Shown piece after piece: positions 38,862 to 48,935 of a stretch of DNA of 64,000 nucleotides. The position numbers and the translations under genes were made by a program. Under the pieces are notes generated by a model. It ran no database searches. It was given only the letters and a program-made list of their open reading frames with translations, and was not told the DNA's origin. Source of the stretch: Simplicispira hankyongi (GTDB lineage: Bacteria; Pseudomonadota; Gammaproteobacteria; Burkholderiales; Burkholderiaceae_C); the NCBI RefSeq assembly GCF_003570885.1, contig NZ_QXJC01000001.1, positions 806,001 through 870,000 on the forward strand, read 5' to 3'. Numbering within the stretch: position 1 is the first letter of the stretch; each line of letters opens with the position of its first letter.

Positions 38862-40469
38862 CTATGGTAACGGCTTCAAATCCAGTTCTCTCAGGAAAGC
38901 GTTGTGCTTGTCCTTCGCAGCTGCAATCGCTTTTTCGATCTCCAGCAACTCACGGTGGGTGGCAGCAAGGTCAATCTCGGCCTCGCCCACTGCCGTGCTG
39001 ATGTAGCGCGAGATATTCAGGTTGAAGTCGTTCTTCTCGATCTCGGCCATTTCCACCCGGCGTGAGTAGCGTGCTTCTTCCTCGCGGTACTGGTAGGTCT
39101 TGATGATCTTGGCAATGTGCTCATCCGTCAGCTGGTTCTGGCGCTTGCCCTTGGCAAAATGCTCGGCCGCGTTGATGAACAGGACATCGTCCGGCTTCTT
39201 GCACTTTTTCAGCACCAGGATGCAGACCGGAATGCCCGTGGAATAGAACAAGTTGGACGGCAAACCAATCACCGTGTCGATGTGGCCGTCCAACAATAGC
39301 TTCTTGCGAATGCGCTCTTCCGCCCCACCCCGGAACAACACCCCATGCGGCAGGATGATGGCCATCACGCCTTCGTCCTTCAGGAAGTGAAAGCCATGCA
39401 GCAAAAAGGCGAAGTCTGCCGCCGACTTGGGCGCGAGGCCGTGGCTTTTGAAGCGCACATCGTCCGCCATGGCCTCGTTGGGCTCCCAGCGGTAGCTGAA
39501 CGGCGGGTTGGCCACGATGGCATCAAACGCAGGCTTCTTGGCCGGGTTCAGCTCGCGCAGCATGTCCCAGTCGTTGGTCAGCGTGTCGCCGTGGAAGATT
39601 TCAAACTCCGTGTCCTTCACCCCGTGCAGCAGCATGTTCATGCGCGCCAGGTTGTAGGTGGTGATGTTTTTCTCTTGCCCGTAAATCTTGCCAATGCCAT
39701 GCGGCCCCATGCGCTTGCGCACGTTCAGCAGCAGCGAACCCGAGCCACAGGCAAAGTCCATCACGCTGTCCAGCCGTTGCCGCGCGCCCGTGCGCGGCTC
39801 CTGGCTGTCCAGCGTCACGATGGTAGAGAGGATGTCCGAGATTTGCTGCGGCGTGTAAAACTCGCCCGCCTTCTTGCCCGAGCCCGCCGCAAACTGGCCA
39901 ATCAGGTACTCATACGCATCGCCCAGCGCATCCATCTCCTTGGAGAACTCCGCCAGCCCATCGGCGATCTTCTGGATGATGGAGCACAGTTTGGCATTGC
40001 GCTCCGTGTAGTTTTTGCCCAGCTTGGGCGAGGCCAAGTCAATCTCGGAGAACAAGCCCTGAAACGTGCTCTGAAACGATTCGGTTTCGATGTATTTGAA
40101 ACCCGTTTGCAAGGTGTGCAGCAACTCGGCATCTTGCGTTCGGGCCATGTTGGCAATGCTGCTCCACAGGTGCTGCGGCTCAATCACGTAATGCACCTTG
40201 CGGCGCATCTGCTTTTCAAATTCGGGCACATCGTCCAGGTTGCCCTCGTACCAAAGCTGCAAGGGTGTCGATACGGAGCTGTCAATCTGGGTCGGGTAGT
40301 CGCTGCCCAACTCCTTCTTTGCTGCAGCCTCGTAGTTGTCCGACAGGTAGCGCAAAAACAGGAACGACAGCATGTAGTCGCGGAAATCGTCCGCGTCCAT
40401 CGCCCCGCGCAGTTGGTCGGCAATCGCCCACAGGGTATTGCCCAGTTTCTTTTGGCTTTGTTCAGTCAT
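38862..40469 (-). CDS. hsdM: Type I restriction-modification system, DNA methyltransferase subunit
   Basis: A 535-residue HsdM: an N-terminal helical domain (LGNTLWAIADQLRGAMDADD), SAM-binding motif I DFACGSGSLLLNVRKR, and catalytic NPPF (IVANPPFSYRW) for N6-adenine methylation. Length fits the type IC branch. It is the last gene of the island operon, 23 bases after the SEC-C gene. This is unusual because hsdM is normally near the front, next to hsdS. Confidence 0.95.
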   Translation of the reverse strand: MTEQSQKKLGNTLWAIADQLRGAMDADDFRDYMLSFLFLRYLSDNYEAAAKKELGSDYPTQIDSSVSTPLQLWYEGNLDDVPEFEKQMRRKVHYVIEPQHLWSSIANMARTQDAELLHTLQTGFKYIETESFQSTFQGLFSEIDLASPKLGKNYTERNAKLCSIIQKIADGLAEFSKEMDALGDAYEYLIGQFAAGSGKKAGEFYTPQQISDILSTIVTLDSQEPRTGARQRLDSVMDFACGSGSLLLNVRKRMGPHGIGKIYGQEKNITTYNLARMNMLLHGVKDTEFEIFHGDTLTNDWDMLRELNPAKKPAFDAIVANPPFSYRWEPNEAMADDVRFKSHGLAPKSAADFAFLLHGFHFLKDEGVMAIILPHGVLFRGGAEERIRKKLLLDGHIDTVIGLPSNLFYSTGIPVCILVLKKCKKPDDVLFINAAEHFAKGKRQNQLTDEHIAKIIKTYQYREEEARYSRRVEMAEIEKNDFNLNISRYISTAVGEAEIDLAATHRELLEIEKAIAAAKDKHNAFLRELDLKPLP

Positions 40470-40492
40470 GTTGTTGTTTGTGTGCAGAAGGC

Positions 40493-41512
40493 TCAGTGCA
40501 GCTCAGACGGCGCACCACAGCATTTTTTGAACTTCTTGCCACTGCCGCAGGGGCAGGGCTCGTTGCGGCCCAATTTGATGCTCATGCGTTGTGCCTGCTG
40601 GCGCCCTGCCACGGCGTGCCGCAGTGGAAGCCAAAACGCATGAATTTGCTGCACGCTGTGCGCAATCTCCCCCGCAAGGGCTTGGCGTTGCTCAGGGGTA
40701 CGCGTCAGCGCGTCTTTATCGGGTGAAAAGTCATCTTCGCCCAGCAAACCGATAGGGCGATACCACTGCTTGCCTTGTGGGTCATTCAACAGCGCTTGCC
40801 ACGCCGTGCGGTTGAGGTTGACGCCCTCAGAAAAACCATAGGCCCACATCTCTGGGTCCTCAAACTCCCCCAACTCCCCATATTGCGTCGTTCCCCACAG
40901 CGGCTCCACAAACGGCGGGCGCTGCCCAAAGCCGAAGACGATGCTGTTGAAGTGGCGCATCACCAGACTCAGCACGCGCTCCATTTGGTCGGCGTCCACA
41001 CCGGGAAGCACCATGCCGCCGTCAGCCTGCCCCCAGACCTTGGGCAACCAACGGCTCGGCATTACCGTTTCCGGCCCAATGGCAATGGCATGCAGAAAGC
41101 CGTCGAGCGTATCCAAGGTCATGCTCTCTTCTTCATCCAGGTAGAGCAAAAACTGGTCTAGCTCATCCAGCTCTGCTTCAGACAGAGGCCCAATCATCAT
41201 GTTGTACTTACCGCCAAGCACCGACTGCTCCAGCTTGCGCAGCAACTCTGGCGCCGCAGCCTTGGCCGCTTGCTGAGCCTGGGTCACGAAGCTCGCGATT
41301 CCTTCTTCTTCAATCGCCAAAAAGGCCGCCTCCAGCGCCGCCTTGTCGGTTTCAAACGGGTCGTCCCAAACCGTGGACGTACCGTGCCCGTCCACCACCT
41401 CCAGAATCCAGGCGCTGTCAGGGCTGCGGTAAATCTGGATGCTCAGCGTATGCCCGTCGGCGCGGTAGGTTTGCTGCAGCGGGGAGTAAATGATTTCAAT
41501 GTCTTCCGCCAT
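40493..41512 (-). CDS. UPF0149/YecA-like protein with C-terminal SEC-C zinc motif
   Basis: A 339-residue protein in three parts: residues 1-75 with no family I recognise (starts [18 protein letters not shown]), a UPF0149-like helical region at about 110-260 ([20 protein letters not shown]), and a C-terminal SEC-C zinc-binding motif [23 protein letters not shown] motifs bind zinc and contact ribosomes or SecB in SecA; here the target is unknown. It starts three bases after fic, so it belongs to the island operon. Similar proteins occur as accessory genes in defence loci, which is my inference only. Confidence 0.8.
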
Positions 41513-41515
41513 GGT

Positions 41516-42121
41516 TCACAAATCCTCGACCCGGTACTCGCTATAGCCTTCGTAGTAGTAGCTCACGTCGATGCCTTTCATGTACAGCTCGCGGTCGTTT
41601 ATCTTGTCGGTCAATGCATTTTTGAGCAGGTGTTTGATTTCCAAATCCTTGACCACGCTACGCTCCATGGCCGACAAATACTCCGCCTTGTCCACTGCGT
41701 TCCAATCAATGACCTGCTGGAGTTCCTTCTTCAGTATCAAGTCCAGCCAGATGCGCGTTGCGCGTCCGTTGCCCTCTCTGAAGGGATGGGCCACATTCAT
41801 TTCCACGTATTTTTCAATGATCTGATCAAAATTCAGCTGCGGCATGGCGCTGATATGCGCCAGCGCCTGCTGCAAATACATGACCGGGGCAAACCGAAAA
41901 TTGCCCTTTGCCAAATTGACGTCACGCACTTGCCCCGCAAACGCATACACCTCACCAAACAGATACGCATGGATATACGCCAGCCCGGCAAAGGTGCCCA
42001 CTTCCACGTGGTCGATATCACCGCTTTCAAACAACTGCTTGGCCTTTTGCTTGCTCAGTTTTTCTTCTGCCCGGTTGAGTTCAACCTGGCTTGTCAGCTG
42101 CAGTTTGTTGCCTAAGACCAT
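41516..42121 (-). CDS. Fic-domain AMP-transferase, self-inhibited class III type
   Basis: A 201-residue protein with the Fic active site [12 protein letters not shown] at residues 112-123, whose H112 is the catalytic base. Near the C-terminus SYYYEG (187-192) matches the [S/T]xxxE[G/N] inhibitory motif of single-domain class III Fic proteins such as that of Neisseria meningitidis. Such enzymes modify target proteins with AMP when inhibition is relieved. No separate antitoxin gene is needed or seen. AAGG lies eight bases before the ATG. It is downstream of rhuM by 40 bases. Confidence 0.88.
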
Positions 42122-42161
42122 GGTGTGACCTTTGCGTTAGAAGTTGATCGGGTGTGAAGCG

Positions 42162-43172
42162 TCATGGTTTAGAGCGATTCTTGAGGGTGTTTTCCAGTGC
42201 CTTCAAATCGGCTTCATCCTGCGCGTCCGCTGCGCGGGCTTCCTCAGCCTTGCGGCGTTGGTCAAAGTCCAGATACAGCGGCTCCAGCTTTTGCTCCATG
42301 CGGGCGTGGCTTACCATGCCTGCCCCGCTTAGCAGTGGAAAGCCGTTGGCGACGATGATCTGCCCCACGTTCTCGCGCCAAAAGCCCATGCTGGTGATGG
42401 TTTGCCGCTTGGCGCGCAGCTCTGCGGTTTCCAAGAAGATCACCACCAGCCGGTTCAGGGTGTCCACTTCGTCTTCGGTCAGGTAGTTTTTGGCCACCAG
42501 AATGTCCTGCTTACGCACCTGGGTGCCCTTCCAGGTCAGCAGGCCGAAATGCGGGTCGGCAGGGTTGGCGCGGCTCACGATGAGTTCTGCCGCCGTCTTT
42601 TGCGTTACCGCATACAACAGCAGGTTTTGCACCGTGGCAAAAAAGGTCTGCGTGGCCTCATCCGTCTTGTCGTAGTCTGCAGCCAGGGCAAACAGGTCGC
42701 GCACCTTTTGATAGAAGCGCTTTTCCGAGGCCCGAATGTCCCGGATGCGCGCCAGCATCTCGTCAAAGTAGTCCGGGCGGCCATCCGGATTCTTCAGCCG
42801 CTCGTCGTCCATCACAAAGCCCTTGACCAGGTACTCCTTGAGCACCGTGGACGCCCAGCGGCGGAACTGCACGCCACGCGGCGAGCGCACGCGGTAGCCC
42901 ACGGCCAGGATGGCGTCGAGGTTATAAAGCGTGACGGGCCGCTGCACCTGGCGCGTGCCCTCGGTTTGAACTACCGAGGATTCCTCGGCAGTTGCCTCCC
43001 GACTCAGTTCGCCATCTTCATAAATGTTCTTGAGGTGCAGCCCGACGTTGTCCGCACTGACATCGAACAGCTCGGCCATTTCCCGCTGGGATAGCCAGAC
43101 GGTTTGATCTTTGGCGCGCAGTTGAATCTGGCTCTTGCCATCATCTGTGGTGTAAAGAATCAAATTATTCAT
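42162..43172 (-). CDS. rhuM: RhuM-family protein
   Basis: A 336-residue protein with a winged-helix-like N-terminus (TVWLSQREMAELFDVSADNV), the conserved RhuM region LYNLDAILAVGYRVRSPRGV and a C-terminal part (VAKNYLTEDEVDTLNRLVV). RhuM was named in Salmonella pathogenicity island 3, and its biochemical role is not established; relatives are often found inside type I restriction loci. Its start overlaps the prrC stop by four bases, so it is co-translated. Confidence 0.85.
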   Translation of the reverse strand: MNNLILYTTDDGKSQIQLRAKDQTVWLSQREMAELFDVSADNVGLHLKNIYEDGELSREATAEESSVVQTEGTRQVQRPVTLYNLDAILAVGYRVRSPRGVQFRRWASTVLKEYLVKGFVMDDERLKNPDGRPDYFDEMLARIRDIRASEKRFYQKVRDLFALAADYDKTDEATQTFFATVQNLLLYAVTQKTAAELIVSRANPADPHFGLLTWKGTQVRKQDILVAKNYLTEDEVDTLNRLVVIFLETAELRAKRQTITSMGFWRENVGQIIVANGFPLLSGAGMVSHARMEQKLEPLYLDFDQRRKAEEARAADAQDEADLKALENTLKNRSKP

Positions 43173-44359
43173 GGCATCTGGGGCACGGCAGCTCTGTGGG
43201 CGGGCTGTCCAAACATCTCTGGCAGCGCAAACTCATAGCGCCCCAGAAATGCTTGGAGAATTTCTTTGAACAGCTTCTTGTTGTCGTCCACCATCTCCGA
43301 AGGCTGGTAAATGTCGTACTTTCCATGGCTCAGCAAATTGAGCGCGCGGGAGAACAAATCCGCATCGTCCAGCCCGTGGATGCAGGTCGAGAAATCATCC
43401 CGCCCAAAAAAGGTGGCCGTCTTCTCCAAAATGCTACGCAGCATATTGAAGTGGTAGGTATAGAGCTTGCCGCTTTGGGCGGCCTTTTGCAGTTCGGCCA
43501 ACATGGACACATGGTGGAAAAACGGTGTGTCGTCCGTCGCACGCAGCGTGTACACCGTGCCGCGTTCAGGCCGCTGCAACAGGTATTTTTTGTGCGCGTC
43601 CTTCTTCAGCTCATTGCACACCACGTTAAAGAAGAGCGAATGGTGGGAAGACACTACGGCTTTGATGGGCGCGGGCACCGAGCGTGGTGCGTTCTCCGCA
43701 CCCGCAGGGCCATCAACCGCCACGGCATCTTGTCGGGTTCTGCTTTTGGCCTTGCGCAGCAGCTTGGCCAAATCGCTGGCGACTGCAATCGCGTTGTTGT
43801 CGTCCAGCGAGGTGATCGGGTCGTCAATGTAGAGGTACTTCACCCACGCATAGGCTTCCAGCCCGTCAATCACCCGCTCGCAAATGGCGATGAACAGGCA
43901 CCAGATGAAGATATTCTCCTCACCACGAGATACCTTGATATGGCGCTCATCGTCACTTTTGCGGAAGCTGATGGACCACTGGTCGTAATCAATATCGAAA
44001 AGAAAATCGGCGTAGCGGCCCAGGTAGTAGCCAATCCGCTCGTCCAACGCCAAATCCTTCAGTCCCTTGAAGAATTTTGAATCTGCATTGATATGTAGCC
44101 GCCGCTCTTTGTCTTCCTCCAAGTCGTTGTCCCAAGAGAACAAGTCTTCGGTAAAAGCGTTGAAATACAACGTGTCTGGCTGGCCCTTGTTTTTGCGCTT
44201 ACCCGCATCCTTGAACTCCATGGACAGCCGAGTTTTACCCGTGCCGTTGTAGGCGTAGAGCAGCACAAACTCTTGATTGCCGCTGTTGAGGTCATCGCGC
44301 AATCTAGTTGCAAGCCCCCTCAGGCTGGTGAAGCGATGAATCTTCGGTTTCTCGCTCAT
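43169..44359 (-). CDS. prrC: PrrC-type anticodon nuclease
   Basis: The 396-residue protein has the PrrC plan. Its NTPase part carries Walker A AYNGTGKTRLS (from residue 36), NAFTEDLFSWDNDLEED, an ABC-like signature SRGEENIFIW (144-153) and Walker B YLYIDDPITSLDDNN (175-189). The C-terminal ribonuclease part carries R308 and E312 in LRSILEKT and H345 in LLSHGK, matching the Arg/Glu/His triad known for Escherichia coli PrrC. PrrC cuts tRNA-Lys in its anticodon loop when phage proteins disable the partner restriction enzyme. A 28-residue basic/Ala/Pro insert (about 204-231) looks specific to this protein. Start and stop overlap hsdS and rhuM (ATGA). Confidence 0.92.
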   Translation of the reverse strand: MSEKPKIHRFTSLRGLATRLRDDLNSGNQEFVLLYAYNGTGKTRLSMEFKDAGKRKNKGQPDTLYFNAFTEDLFSWDNDLEEDKERRLHINADSKFFKGLKDLALDERIGYYLGRYADFLFDIDYDQWSISFRKSDDERHIKVSRGEENIFIWCLFIAICERVIDGLEAYAWVKYLYIDDPITSLDDNNAIAVASDLAKLLRKAKSRTRQDAVAVDGPAGAENAPRSVPAPIKAVVSSHHSLFFNVVCNELKKDAHKKYLLQRPERGTVYTLRATDDTPFFHHVSMLAELQKAAQSGKLYTYHFNMLRSILEKTATFFGRDDFSTCIHGLDDADLFSRALNLLSHGKYDIYQPSEMVDDNKKLFKEILQAFLGRYEFALPEMFGQPAHRAAVPQMP

Positions 44360-45636
44360 GCCTCAACCACCTCTGGCGGAGGGAAAAGCTTCTGCATCAG
44401 CCCTTTTTTGTGAGTCTTGAGGATTTCGAGTTCTTGAGAGGCGGTGGTGATGAGGGTGTTGAGGGCGGTGAGGCAGTCGGCTATGCGTTGTTGCTCAGCC
44501 AAACTTGGAACATGTATAGGCAGAGTCTTTAGTTCACTCGCCAGAATGTGTTTAATAGTGTTTCCGGTCGTAATCTGGAATATGGCTAATTTTCCGATTG
44601 GCGCATAAAAATACTGCCCAAAAAATTCAGAACTTAGCTTCTTCCTCGGAGTAAGAATGACTAATGCGTGGCAATTGGCGCCATCGAAATCAGGACCAAC
44701 GACTGCACACTCTCCGACATGTCCTGATTGAACCATCAAGATATCACCTGTCTTGAGATGTGACTTGCGTTGCCGGTTGTGGAAGTCATTGGTAATAAAA
44801 ATGAGGTTGTCGGCATCAATCATCCCCTGCTTAATATTCCGGCCTTGCAAGTATCGGACACCTTCGCTCGTCGTGTAATACGGGGTCGCTGTGCCGACAA
44901 AACCATTTCGGATAGGGTCGAAATATGCTCCAAGAGTTGTCTCCTCCCACTCCCCCGCATCCCGAAACTCAGCAAACCTCAAACGCGGTTGGGTTTCGCC
45001 TTCACGGGGGAAAAGCTGCTGCATCAGCCCTTTTTTATGGGTCTTGAGCGCATCAAATTTGCGCGCTTGCGCGGCGATCAGCTCGTCCAAGGAACTCAGG
45101 CAGTCGGCGATTTTTTGTTGTTCGGCAGGTGACGACACGGGCAAAGGCATTGCCATGAAGTCGTCACTTGAAATGGCCATTCGATCATGCCGTGCGCCTG
45201 TGCTGGATGCCTGCCGAATATAGGTGTGCCAGCCTGTCGTCTTAAAGTAATGCTCATAAAACTCGTTGCTATCGTTTTCGAACTTGAATACGGTATACAA
45301 CGGCGACATGACGCCCGTTTCGATTTTATTTTTCGAAATCGGACCGACGGGTGCCGTTGTAGAAATGCGTGGGTTATAAACATAACTCCCGATCTCAACG
45401 ATGAAATAGCTTTCGAGGTTTCCTTGTATAGCAATGTCTTTATCAAAGAAGTCCCGTTGATCTACCACTCCAAACTCGGCAGAGTTAGTTAATACGCGGG
45501 TAATTTTTTGATCGCGGTTTTTCTTCTTGGTGCGCCTTGCCAATTGACTCAGAGGCACTACCCGCCACCCCTCAGCCGCTAAAAAATCAGGAAATCGCAG
45601 CTTAGGCATCAGCGGTTTTGTTTGCTTATTGCTCAT
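44356..45636 (-). CDS. hsdS: Type I restriction-modification system, specificity subunit
   Basis: A 426-residue HsdS with two target recognition domains (about residues 15-145 and 215-360) separated and followed by conserved helical spacers: AEQQKIADCLSSLDELI and LAEQQRIADCLTALNTLI, each ending THKKGLMQ.LFP. HsdS sets the bipartite DNA target for HsdM and HsdR. The ATG at 45636 overlaps the end of hsdR; an in-frame ATG two codons upstream is an alternative. Confidence 0.94.
   Translation of the reverse strand: MSNKQTKPLMPKLRFPDFLAAEGWRVVPLSQLARRTKKKNRDQKITRVLTNSAEFGVVDQRDFFDKDIAIQGNLESYFIVEIGSYVYNPRISTTAPVGPISKNKIETGVMSPLYTVFKFENDSNEFYEHYFKTTGWHTYIRQASSTGARHDRMAISSDDFMAMPLPVSSPAEQQKIADCLSSLDELIAAQARKFDALKTHKKGLMQQLFPREGETQPRLRFAEFRDAGEWEETTLGAYFDPIRNGFVGTATPYYTTSEGVRYLQGRNIKQGMIDADNLIFITNDFHNRQRKSHLKTGDILMVQSGHVGECAVVGPDFDGANCHALVILTPRKKLSSEFFGQYFYAPIGKLAIFQITTGNTIKHILASELKTLPIHVPSLAEQQRIADCLTALNTLITTASQELEILKTHKKGLMQKLFPPPEVVEA
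44381..44500. repeat. Direct repeat in hsdS (3' spacer copy)
   Basis: This 120-base segment encodes the second conserved spacer of HsdS and aligns without gaps to 45008-45127, which encodes the first. The repeat allows recombination that could swap recognition domains. Confidence 0.75.
45008..45127. repeat. Direct repeat in hsdS (central spacer copy)
   Basis: Partner of 44381-44500; both read GGGAAAAGC at one end and share the CATCAGCCCTTTTTT stretch. The two copies lie in the same orientation 627 bases apart. Confidence 0.75.
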
Positions 45637-48600
45637 ACGCACTCAGCCCCGAAATCTCCCGCCCCTGCGCACGCTTTTGCAGCAAGGGCACCAACTCTTT
45701 CATCAACGCCGTTTCTGCCTGCGCCCGCGCCTTCCAGCCCAAGTCCAGCGGGGCCATCAAATCACTGAGCGCCTCACCATCAAAAATCATGCGCTGCAAG
45801 ATACCGTCCACAAAGGCTTGCAGCGCAGCGGGGGCCAGTTGGTGGCGGGCGGCGATGTCGGCAAGCTCGGCGCTGTCTTTTTCCTTCTTGAACTTCGTGT
45901 AGCCCTCGCGGATGGCGGCCTCGCTCAGGCCCTCGCCTACCTTCAGGGTGTGGATGTAGGCGGCGATGTCTTCGCGCTCGTTCATGAATTTGGCGTCGGA
46001 CAAGATCAAGCCCAGCAGCTCCTCCTTGGTCATCTTTTGCTTGCCGCCGCCTTGCAGCCCCTGCTGTGAATAGCGGGACATGAGGCCCATGATGTAGTCG
46101 TAGTCGATCACGCTGCTGGCAAACAGCACGAATTCAAAGTCGAGCTGGTCCACCTCATCGGATGCACCGCCCTGCTCCGTGCCGCTTTGGTCGTGCTGGG
46201 CTTGTTGCGCTTTGAGGCGCTGGGCGGTTTCCAGGTAGGCACCGCGAAAGGCTTGCAGTCGCTCGGCGGGCAGGATGTGTTCGATGGCTACTGTGTTGTC
46301 TGCAGTGAGGTCGGTGTATTGGTCGAGCTGGGTTTTCAGGCGCTGCACTTCTTTGAAGTTTTGGATAAAGGCGGCGCGTGCATCGTCGCCCTTCAGGCTG
46401 TGCACGGCCTCGGGCGTGCAGGCCAGGCCCTGGCTTTGCATGAAGTCGGCCAGTTTTTGCACAGCGGCGTCCAGCTTTTGGATGACCACCGGCGCTTTGT
46501 CTACCAGCCAAATCTCCCGTGCTTGTTCGCCCGTTTTTTCGCCGGAGAACAGGGCAATGGCGGCGTCCACATTGGCTTGCTGTTGTCGAAAGTCCAGGAT
46601 ATTGCCGTAGGGCTTGGTGCCGTTGAGCACGCGGTTTGTGCGAGAGAACGCCTGTATCAAGCCGTGGTGCTTGAGGTTCTTGTCCACGTACAGGGTGTTG
46701 AGGTATTTGCTGTCAAACCCGGTGAGCAGCATGTCCACCACGATGGTGATGTCGATTTTTTTGGCCGCCGGGTAATCCGCATTGGGCCACTGGTGGTCTT
46801 TGATGCGCTTTTGTACGTCTTGGTAGTACAGGTCGAACTCGCCGATGCTGTGGTTTGTGTCGTAGCGGGTGTTGTAGCGGGCCAAAATGGCTTTGAGGGC
46901 GGCTTTTTTGCCTTCGGGGTCCACCTGGTTGTCTGCTTTTTCTTGGGGCAGGTCTTCTTGAATTTGCCGCACATCGGCATCACCCTCTGCCGGGGGCGAG
47001 AACACGCAGGCGATGTTGAGCGGCACAAAGGCGGGGTCTGCCGCTTGTTTGGCTTGTTGAATCTCGTCAAACAGGCGGTGGTATTCAATGGCGTCGTTGA
47101 TGCTGGCGGTGGCCAGCACGGCGTTGAAGCGGCGGTGGGCAGTGGCGGTGTCGTGCTTGGCCAGTATGGCTTCGATGACGGCCTTTTTGGCCAGGGCCTC
47201 GCCGGGCTTGGGTGGATTTTTACCCTCAGGCTTGTAGTAGTCCACATGGAAGCGCAGCACGTTGGCGTCTTCAATGGCGTGGGTGATGGTGTAGGCGTGC
47301 AGTTGTTTTTGGAACAGGTCTTCCGTGGTCTTCATGGAAGCCTGCTCGTCCTCAATCTGCGTGCGGCTGGAGTTGGCTTCAAAAATGGGCGTGCCGGTAA
47401 AGCCGAACAGTTGCGCCTTGGGGAAGAACTCTTTGATGGCCTGGTGGTTGTCACCAAACTGCGAGCGGTGGCATTCGTCAAAGATAAAGACGATGCGCTT
47501 ATTGGCCAGCGGTGCCAGTTGCTCTTTGTAGGTGGCCTTGCCGTCTTTCTTTTGCTGCTTGTTGCGCTTGCTGTTCTCATCCAGCGCCAGGCCCAGCTTT
47601 TGGATGGTGGTGACGATGACCTTGTCGGCGTAGTCATCCGACAGCAGGCGGCGCACCAGGGTGGCGGTATTGGTGTTTTCTTCGACGCAGCCTTCTTGAA
47701 AGCGGTTGAATTCCTCGCGGGTCTGGCGGTCCAGGTCTTTGCGGTCCACCACAAAGAGGCATTTCTCAATATCAGGGTTGTCTTTAAGCAGGGTGGACGC
47801 CTTGAAGGACGTGAGCGTTTTGCCGCTGCCCGTGGTGTGCCAGATGTAGCCGTTGCCGCTGTTTTGGTGAATGCACTCGACGATGTGCTTGACGGCATAG
47901 ACCTGGTAGGGCCGCATCATCAGCAGCTTTTGCTCTGATGCCACCAGCACCATGTAGCGGCTGATGGTCTGGCCCAGGGTGCACTTGCCCAAGAAGTTGT
48001 CGGCAAACTCGTCGAGCTGGGTGATCTTGTGGTTGGCCTCGTCGGCAAACTGGTAGATGGGCAAAAACCGCTCGTCTGCATTGAACGCAAAGTGCCGGGC
48101 GTTGTTGTTGGCGAAGTAGTAGGTGCTGGTGCGGTTGCTGACGATGAAGAGCTGCAAAAAGCTCAGCAGCGTTTTGGTGTAGCCGTTGCCGGGGTCGTTT
48201 TTGTAGTCAACGATCTGCTCCATGGCCCGGCGGGGGTTGATGCCCAGGGTTTTGAGCTCCACCTGCACGCACGGCACGCCGTTGATGAGGATGAGCACGT
48301 CGTACCGGTGGTGGCTGTAGTCGGTGTTGATGCGCAGCTGGTTGACGACCTCAAAGGTGTTCTTGCACCAGTCTTTGATGTTGACCAGGGTGTAGTTCAG
48401 CGGCGTGCCGTCTTCGCGCGTGAAGGCATTGATGCTGCGCAGGGTTTTGGCGGCGGTGAAGACGTCGGGGGTGACGATTTCGTCCAGCAGGCGGGCAAAT
48501 TCGCCATCGGTCAGGTGCACGCGGTTCAGGGCCTCGAACTTCTCGCGAAAGTTGCGCTCCAGCGCGGCGCGGTCGCGGATATCGGGGCGGTATTCGTACT

Positions 48601-48730
48601 TGAGGTTTTGGAGCTTGCCGATGAAGCCGTATTCGATCTGCTCTTCTTTGACGGCGGGGCTCGGGGCTCCTGATGGCAGATCGTAGATTGACTTGGATGA
48701 AGGCATGGGGGAGGAACGTGCGTTGGCCAT
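45626..48730 (-). CDS. hsdR: Type I restriction-modification system, restriction/translocase subunit
   Basis: A protein of about 1034 residues, close to EcoR124I HsdR and so type IC-like. The N-terminal nuclease shows VLILINGVPCVQVELKTLG (Asp and ExK of the PD-ExK fold). Motor motifs follow: Walker A TTGSGKTLTSFKAS, the DEAD-box-like FIFDECHRSQFGD, and motif VI QAFSRTNRVL. It cleaves unmodified DNA after translocation. The start is unsure: ATG at 48730 or 48706, neither with a clear ribosome binding site. It is the first gene of the operon. Confidence 0.94.
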   Translation of the reverse strand: MANARSSPMPSSKSIYDLPSGAPSPAVKEEQIEYGFIGKLQNLKYEYRPDIRDRAALERNFREKFEALNRVHLTDGEFARLLDEIVTPDVFTAAKTLRSINAFTREDGTPLNYTLVNIKDWCKNTFEVVNQLRINTDYSHHRYDVLILINGVPCVQVELKTLGINPRRAMEQIVDYKNDPGNGYTKTLLSFLQLFIVSNRTSTYYFANNNARHFAFNADERFLPIYQFADEANHKITQLDEFADNFLGKCTLGQTISRYMVLVASEQKLLMMRPYQVYAVKHIVECIHQNSGNGYIWHTTGSGKTLTSFKASTLLKDNPDIEKCLFVVDRKDLDRQTREEFNRFQEGCVEENTNTATLVRRLLSDDYADKVIVTTIQKLGLALDENSKRNKQQKKDGKATYKEQLAPLANKRIVFIFDECHRSQFGDNHQAIKEFFPKAQLFGFTGTPIFEANSSRTQIEDEQASMKTTEDLFQKQLHAYTITHAIEDANVLRFHVDYYKPEGKNPPKPGEALAKKAVIEAILAKHDTATAHRRFNAVLATASINDAIEYHRLFDEIQQAKQAADPAFVPLNIACVFSPPAEGDADVRQIQEDLPQEKADNQVDPEGKKAALKAILARYNTRYDTNHSIGEFDLYYQDVQKRIKDHQWPNADYPAAKKIDITIVVDMLLTGFDSKYLNTLYVDKNLKHHGLIQAFSRTNRVLNGTKPYGNILDFRQQQANVDAAIALFSGEKTGEQAREIWLVDKAPVVIQKLDAAVQKLADFMQSQGLACTPEAVHSLKGDDARAAFIQNFKEVQRLKTQLDQYTDLTADNTVAIEHILPAERLQAFRGAYLETAQRLKAQQAQHDQSGTEQGGASDEVDQLDFEFVLFASSVIDYDYIMGLMSRYSQQGLQGGGKQKMTKEELLGLILSDAKFMNEREDIAAYIHTLKVGEGLSEAAIREGYTKFKKEKDSAELADIAARHQLAPAALQAFVDGILQRMIFDGEALSDLMAPLDLGWKARAQAETALMKELVPLLQKRAQGREISGLSAYEQ

Positions 48731-48806: not shown

Positions 48807-48935
48807 TCAATTGTGGGGCGAGTGGGCCCGATCAAAGAGCTTGCCGATCTCATGCAGCGTCCAGCCTTGTTTCCAGCGCTCCCACATCAGCGCCTTCTGA
48901 GTATCTGAATCGTAGATTCTTGGTCGCTGCTTCAT
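48807..48935 (-). pseudogene. IS30-like transposase N-terminal remnant
   Basis: From an ATG at 48935 with AGGAG upstream, 42 codons read MKQRPRIYDSDTQKALMWER and WTLHEIGKLFDRAH, the helix-turn-helix start I associate with IS30-family transposases of Burkholderiales. It then stops at a TGA where the family continues. The rest of the element is missing. It lies directly upstream of hsdR and marks an old insertion at the island edge. Confidence 0.7.

Follow-up and report, generated by a model that had tools for sequence, protein, structure and literature searches.

A 64,000-nucleotide stretch of the Simplicispira hankyongi genome (contig NZ_QXJC01000001.1, positions 806,001 to 870,000; hereafter the window, numbered from its first letter) carries on its minus strand, from 48730 to 38862, seven intact open reading frames (ORFs) in the order hsdR-hsdS-prrC-rhuM-fic-secC-hsdM. 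The sequence shows intact genes for HsdRMS, the three subunits of a type I restriction-modification (R-M) system, and for the guard nuclease PrrC, with rhuM, fic, and secC filling the slot between prrC and hsdM. Comparison with related loci suggests that a type IC R-M operon with a PrrC guard probably serves as a chassis for interchangeable defense cargo, whose genes would add layers and would be gained and lost singly. Within a modular family, the operon stands out as unusually full, and its kind of layered defense is already known.

A PrrC-guarded type I operon with three further genes

An earlier note on this DNA described seven genes read in one direction with overlaps or short gaps, and the ORFs, families, and junctions bear this out. 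The Pfam, NCBIfam, and PADLOC profile libraries back the family name of each gene, none of the seven is broken, and every motif sought in the operon proteins is present. All junctions are overlaps or gaps of at most 40 bases: hsdR/hsdS, -17 (with hsdS begun at its GTG; a different start would alter this figure); hsdS/prrC, -4; prrC/rhuM, -4; rhuM/fic, +40; fic/secC, +3; and secC/hsdM, +23. No promoter-like or terminator-like sites were found on the coding strand of the intergenic gaps; as the counts are at or below those of shuffled sequence, this lends a single transcript weak support.

The core is, by profile and motif, a type IC (EcoR124I-kind) R-M system. The predicted type IC restriction/translocase subunit, hsdR (45626..48730, minus strand like all seven genes), spans 1034 aa from the ATG at 48730 in an ORF open to 48853; it has the Pfam domains HSDR_N and EcoR124_C, scores 1109 bits against PADLOC REase_I, carries the VELK, TTGSGKT, and DECH motifs, and matches five PDB sequences, all EcoR124-type HsdR, at up to 377 bits. 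The specificity subunit, hsdS (44356..45642), matches PADLOC Specificity_I (359 bits) and Pfam Methylase_S. The predicted type IC methyltransferase subunit, hsdM (38862..40469), scores 386 bits against TIGR00497 (cut-off 243) and contains DFACGSG and NPPF, with EcoR124II HsdM as its second PDB match (307 bits).

Embedded in this core, with a 4-base overlap with hsdS, prrC (43169..44359) encodes a predicted latent anticodon nuclease (ACNase) of 396 aa, composed of an ABC ATPase and a C-terminal ACNase/HEPN region. It scores 447 bits against the PADLOC PrrC model and has Walker A at 39, an SRGEEN signature at 144, and Walker B at 175; among PDB sequences, nothing matched at an expectation value (E) of ≤0.001. 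Residues R308, E312, and H345, which we take to form the PrrC nuclease site, are kept in 12/12 aligned sequences (the window's included), even in a relative with 30% identity. RloC is a long ABC nuclease with a zinc hook, and we rejected this identity for a 396-aa protein that has no CxxC and sits inside an hsd operon. In the available text of Anantharaman et al. (2013; PMC3710099), R and H are described as needed and RloC as not linked to an R-M system.

The earlier note took a type I enzyme plus PrrC to be an established guard arrangement, and the layout agrees with what has been published. According to the accessible portions of three papers, the R-M complex holds PrrC in a latent state until anti-restriction frees it (PMC3710099; PMC12707154; PMC3506569). 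Like the window, Escherichia coli EcoprrI-PrrC, compared here through its published description, in part, combines a type IC hsd operon with an embedded prrC encoding an ABC ATPase and R...E...H (PMC12707154; PMC3506569), whereas the window has the order hsdR-hsdS-prrC-...-hsdM, with three further genes before hsdM.

The three cargo genes

The first of these, rhuM (42162..43172), encodes a RhuM-family protein with a predicted N-terminal DNA-binding domain. It scores 357 bits against PF13310 (cut-off 33.7) and 487 bits against PADLOC PDC-S05. In its structure model (mean predicted local distance difference test score, pLDDT, of 74), the N-terminal domain resembles several DNA-binding domains; DdrC, a DNA-break binder, was the top match in both fold comparisons but fell below the level of trust. 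Searches against PDB sequences were set aside, as the single sequence gave nothing at E ≤1 and the one profile hit, at E 0.33, was judged to be chance.

The second, fic (41516..42121), encodes a predicted class III Fic AMPylator of the NmFic/EfFIC kind. It exceeds the cut-off of the NCBIfam NmFic equivalog NF046029 (310 bits against 230) and aligns end to end with PDB 5nv5, a Fic family protein, at 329 bits; NmFic (2g03) matches at 239 bits. Its single FIC domain, FIC motif (HPFREGNGR at 112), and C-terminal [S/T]xxxE[G/N] motif (SYYYEG at 187) are those of class III; with NmFic and EfFIC it shares the single domain, the FIC motif, and the C-terminal SxxxE, and it differs from them in lying inside a type I operon. 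Because the inhibitory motif lies in Fic itself, the protein is predicted to carry its own inhibitory helix and to need no antitoxin gene. A FicTA toxin-antitoxin pair was rejected on the same ground, and the gaps of 40 bases to rhuM and 3 bases to secC leave no room for a separate antitoxin gene. The host GyrB keeps the target-site tyrosine, in NSYKVSGGLHGVG, which we take to be the equivalent of E. coli Tyr109. As far as the available text of two papers goes, the C-terminal helix and assembly into tetramers both inhibit NmFic, and the dilute enzyme AMPylates GyrB (PMC12894286; PMC6408439).

NmFic equivalogs above the cut-off occur in 6/321 genomes of the class; four of the six (the window's own included) lie among hsd genes, and two of those four have prrC. 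The NmFic gene of G250, which has no hsd neighbor, may still belong to such an operon, as its contig ends ~0.6 kb away. In viral contigs, five NmFic loci were found, none with hsd genes in view. Enterococcus plasmids commonly carry Fic relatives with 73.5-74% identity to the window Fic, 797 of 1480 matching plasmid records being from Enterococcus (L343 among them).

The third, secC (40493..41512), encodes an N-terminal part of ~100 aa, a UPF0149 (YecA-like) domain, and a SEC-C metal-binding tail. PF03695 (111 bits; 110.9) and PF02810 (41 bits; 40.9) both exceed their cut-offs, and PADLOC PDC-S12 gives 143 bits, while the N-terminal part scanned alone against Pfam matched no family. The single-sequence structure model (mean pLDDT 38) was not used. 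Since YecA, as described in the accessible part of one paper, has a SecA-like metal-binding tail and is a suggested chaperone (PMC8076867), SecC would most likely be an accessory of the chaperone or adaptor kind.

Among 349 genomes of the family, we found four full-length SecC relatives besides the window's own (matching from residue ≤3 to the end), three of which touch hsdM sequence. The locus of G646 is described below; in G660, an hsdR piece, the end of a DUF1016/YhcG nuclease, SecC, and an hsdM piece follow in succession; and in G333, SecC is split into two frames and follows the end of hsdM. The fourth, in G500, has no hsd neighbor, and a further relative (G491) matches from residue 53. 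In viral contigs, where the best 80 of 195 SecC loci were searched, most match the short SEC-C tail alone; the four that extend into UPF0149 were mapped. One IMG/VR contig (L256) reads hsdM-hsdS-secC-hsdR, its UPF0149 protein being more distant. Because relatives touch hsdM in G646, G660, and G333, and because of the order in L256, secC is, by its neighborhoods, a genuine type I cargo gene.

Other occurrences of SecC parts were also noted. The N-terminal part (approximately residues 2-79) exists as a small separate ORF at L163:1646-1939 and L164:5392-5622, with 43-50% identity, and the stand-alone version in L163 matched no Pfam family. On Comamonadaceae plasmids, UPF0149/SEC-C genes 54-57% identical to the C-terminal part (L340:6983-7696 and L341:6914-7702) lie beside IS66 transposase and TnpB genes and are perhaps passenger genes. 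Other relatives of the C-terminal part adjoin metal-efflux genes on plasmids, and a full-span relative of 31% identity adjoins a helicase gene.

Relatives keep the core and differ in cargo

The earlier note would have failed if no relatives kept the extra genes next to prrC, which is not what we found. In G646, of another genus in the same family, locus L355 reads hsdR-BroN-hsdS-prrC-rhuM-secC-hsdM and thus keeps rhuM and secC by prrC in the same order; lacking only fic, it is the sole six-gene match to the window order among the PrrC and SecC loci mapped. Protein identities to the window are 86% for HsdR, 35% for HsdS, 30% for PrrC, 74% for RhuM, 64% for SecC, and 88% for HsdM, the first 112 residues of which (78% identity) lie in another frame. 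At the DNA level, identity is 84% in hsdR, 78% in rhuM, and 77% across secC-hsdM; the match spans hsdM and secC, ends at the start of fic, and picks up again at rhuM. These comparisons suggest that rhuM and secC can stay with this hsdR and hsdM while hsdS and prrC differ. Because G646 keeps both genes in order and three of the four SecC relatives touch hsdM, rhuM and secC are members of this operon family.

Other loaded operons combine PrrC, RhuM, and Fic differently. A Burkholderiales metagenome-assembled genome with a PrrC 88% identical to the window's (L003) has hsdR, two AlbA/HATPase-type genes (68% and 36% identical, where aligned, to the one of L002), hsdS, SoFic, prrC, rhuM, DUF1016, and hsdM; L145 (G169) reads hsdR-NmFic-hsdS-DUF559-prrC-rhuM-hsdM. 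Together with the window, these make three arrangements with two Fic classes, which would have arisen separately. In L155 (G212), a SoFic-like gene lies between hsdS and prrC. A conjugative E. coli IncC plasmid (L375) holds another loaded PrrC operon: hsdR, TrlF, an RNA-binding-domain gene, hsdS, prrC, and hsdM.

PrrC itself differs between otherwise similar operons, most clearly in G646 and in G038 (HsdR 68%, RhuM 75%, PrrC 31%). When all loci are compared with the window, the identity of HsdR tracks that of HsdM (Spearman 0.92, n=75) far better than that of PrrC (0.53, n=79).

The G+C content at third codon positions (GC3) ranges from 0.53 to 0.75 across the five inner genes (hsdS, prrC, rhuM, fic, and secC), 0.79 (0.791) in hsdR, and 0.80 in hsdM, with six flanking genes at 0.79-0.86. 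Because GC3 is low in the inner five and near that of the flanks in hsdR and hsdM, the inner genes look foreign by composition, and hsdR and hsdM hardly so. Directly upstream of hsdR, translation of 48807..48935 on the minus strand gives 42 codons and then a stop; we presume that this remnant resembles the start of an IS30-family transposase, and it may bear on how the operon arrived.

Cargo at PrrC loci and at type I loci without PrrC

We mapped PrrC loci in a species-genome sample (genome_contigs; the best 80 of 265 PrrC relatives), a class sample (nine loci from 321 genomes), a family sample (eight of the ten genomes with PrrC besides the window's), and nine plasmid loci, six of them by annotation alone; many mapped loci end at contig ends. 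The core hsdR-hsdS-prrC-hsdM recurs in the species-genome sample with differing cargo. Counting as cargo any ORF of ≥105 aa or any match to rhuM, fic, or secC, 45 of the 68 PrrC loci in which both hsdR and hsdM are visible have none, 16 have one, 5 have two, 1 has three, and 1 has five. The exact seven-gene order was absent from all 80 species-genome, 9 class, 8 family (one locus being in two sets), and 9 plasmid loci. The earlier note had the extra genes locked between prrC and hsdM; they do occupy that slot, but not as a unit that recurs in any other mapped locus.

As a control, we used type I loci without PrrC from the genomes of the class sample, drawn from the best 60 HsdM matches; 50 remained after 9 partial loci (including L195, with rhuM) and one with a prrC fragment were dropped. 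Dropping 7 of the 80 species-genome loci as partial left 73, with rhuM present in three of those dropped (L009, L032, and L061) and in 13/80 overall, leaving uncounted the rhuM that lies 4 kb away in L058. Motifs were counted within 1.5 kb of hsd genes and again with a 3-kb margin, and compared with the control by Fisher tests.

The results differed by gene. Within 1.5 kb, rhuM occurs in 10/73 species-genome loci (p=0.61) and 7/9 class loci (p=0.0009) against 9/50 control loci; the 3-kb margin adds two control loci (10/73, p=0.33, and 7/9, p=0.002, against 11/50). Enrichment of rhuM with prrC therefore depends on the sample, and the expectation that it keeps company with prrC beyond type I loci in general held in the class sample but not in the species-genome one. 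The small p value is inflated because five of the nine class loci are related by gene order, sharing hsdM-hsdS-prrC-rhuM-hsdR. The FIC motif was found within 1.5 kb in 2/73 (p=0.06, in the direction of fewer) and 2/9 (p=0.59) against 6/50, and with the 3-kb margin in 3/73 and 2/9 against 6/50; a control locus with a Fic profile match but no FIC motif (L254) is excluded from the six. The SEC-C motif was found within 1.5 kb in 0/73 (p=0.41) and 0/9 (p=1) against 1/50. The same expectation for fic and secC thus finds no support, and we rejected both as markers of PrrC loci. In the family sample, the counts were 2/8 for rhuM, 0/8 for fic, and 0/8 for secC; G646 is outside its PrrC list, its 30% identical PrrC having been found beside SecC. 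One locus of the family sample, L365 of G526, matches L005 of Hydrogenophaga taeniospiralis exactly; G526 and the window host are of one family.

Two control loci (L203 and L223) hold both rhuM and the FIC motif. In G185, a second stretch (L197) reads hsdM-hsdS and then rhuM; no prrC or hsdR was found in it, and its HsdM score equals that of the PrrC operon of the same genome.

Where both genes are present, rhuM lies directly 3' of prrC in 18/23 loci, the window not counted (8/13 species-genome, 7/7 class, and 3/3 family loci); in two of the 18, both from the class sample, a 64-aa ORF is called between them. This placement occurs in two different hsd gene orders. The most likely role of RhuM, from its position and modeled fold, is as a DNA-binding accessory linked to PrrC. 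It is possible, if doubtful, that RhuM is no toxin and instead binds DNA, perhaps at breaks, as a sensor or tether with a part in setting the activity of PrrC.

Weighing the explanations

The tight junctions, the position of rhuM behind prrC, the prrC-rhuM-secC-hsdM run kept in G646, and the SecC relatives that touch hsdM could also be expected of a dedicated multi-sensor unit, in which PrrC, RhuM, Fic, and SecC would each signal to the Hsd complex and jointly give one graded abortive response. We consider this unlikely: the counts show no enrichment of fic or secC with prrC, each of rhuM, fic, and a SEC-C protein is also found where a type I locus lacks prrC, and the divergence of PrrC in G646 beside similar RhuM and SecC proteins implies that the partners are not co-inherited. 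It is likewise improbable that rhuM, fic, and secC are mere passengers, selfish or there by chance, caught by recombination in a defense island and without a role for the operon. High cargo turnover across PrrC loci, the fic relatives on Enterococcus plasmids, the plasmid and helicase-gene neighborhoods of SecC relatives, and the full-length SecC of G500 without an hsd neighbor all point that way; against this, the rhuM, fic, and secC ORFs and their motifs are intact, the same families turn up repeatedly within further type I operons, and hsdM is a repeated neighbor of SecC relatives.

Several observations weigh against the chassis explanation that we prefer. Unlabeled control ORFs may include unrecognized hsdS, so that the control cargo counts are upper bounds; the low prrC-hsdR correlation could partly reflect different rates; and with hsdR and hsdM close to the flanks in GC3, composition gives no case for acquisition of the whole operon. 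In addition, according to the available text of one report, no evidence of defense came from a PDC-S04 gene, perhaps from a different subfamily, in one native host (PMC12409345). SoFic is described in the accessible part of another paper as an abortive-infection AMPylase (PMC12249575).

Under the chassis explanation, restriction would come first, the Hsd enzyme cutting unmethylated incoming DNA. PrrC would stay latent on the Hsd complex until phage anti-restriction factors disturbed it, and would then cut tRNA-Lys and stop translation. A self-inhibited Fic, behaving as NmFic does, would wake when its own concentration fell, passing from tetramer to monomer, and would AMPylate GyrB and stop replication; with no antitoxin involved, it would thus signal that the operon had been lost or shut down. 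The working order, by analogy, may be restriction, then PrrC on blocked restriction, and Fic on falling operon expression. In an extension of this scheme, which we regard as very unlikely, RhuM would detect breaks or processed ends as a DdrC-like DNA-binding protein and alert PrrC to DNA cuts by restriction or phage nucleases, and Fic would gauge dose, firing once expression of the operon collapsed; the operon would then have three independent alarms, one each for enzyme integrity, DNA ends, and operon dose, and two outputs (tRNA-Lys cleavage and GyrB AMPylation).

Relation to described systems

The idea of a multi-layer guard is sound, but it is already published, and a fixed seven-gene unit is unsupported. 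In the available text of Anantharaman et al. (PMC3710099), a multi-level defense of R-M, a PrrC-like protein, and RhuM is proposed, as is a three-level one of R-M, an RloC-like ABC-HEPN protein, and Doc, and a table gives the PrrC/RloC group as frequent in R-M operons and with RhuM-like or Fic/Doc-like toxin genes. The neighborhoods in that text share with the window the multi-level idea, PrrC with R-M and RhuM, and Fic/Doc as a further toxin; the window differs in having RhuM and Fic in one PrrC operon, plus the SEC-C gene. The three cargo proteins also match PADLOC candidates, PDC-S05 (RhuM), PDC-S04 (Fic), and PDC-S12 (SEC-C), which are listed as single genes, whereas the window stacks all three behind PrrC. 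The "guilt-by-embedding" approach reportedly goes back to a 2024 preprint by Payne et al. It is the source of the PDC candidates and is cited in the accessible parts of two papers (PMC12988326; PMC12255303). DarTG2 of enteropathogenic E. coli, in a type I R-M island, is likewise a toxin module between hsd genes; the toxin, the slot, and the regulator all differ, and the words PrrC and RhuM are absent from the available main text (PMC12255303). The earlier note regarded the combination as not described as a unit. Layered defense with PrrC and RhuM and the three cargo families had already been recorded; an operon that joins prrC, rhuM, fic, and a SEC-C gene was not described in the text available to a literature search without bioRxiv and most subscription papers.

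Altogether, the operon indicates that a guard system of a type I enzyme plus PrrC has room for several additional effectors together. Fic enzymes, a single kind of effector, seem to have been brought in from different Fic classes and at different slots, and operons that are otherwise alike seem to swap PrrC itself. If the dose-sensing model of Fic is true, it would provide a testable way for an operon without an antitoxin to punish a shut-down driven by phages or mobile elements.

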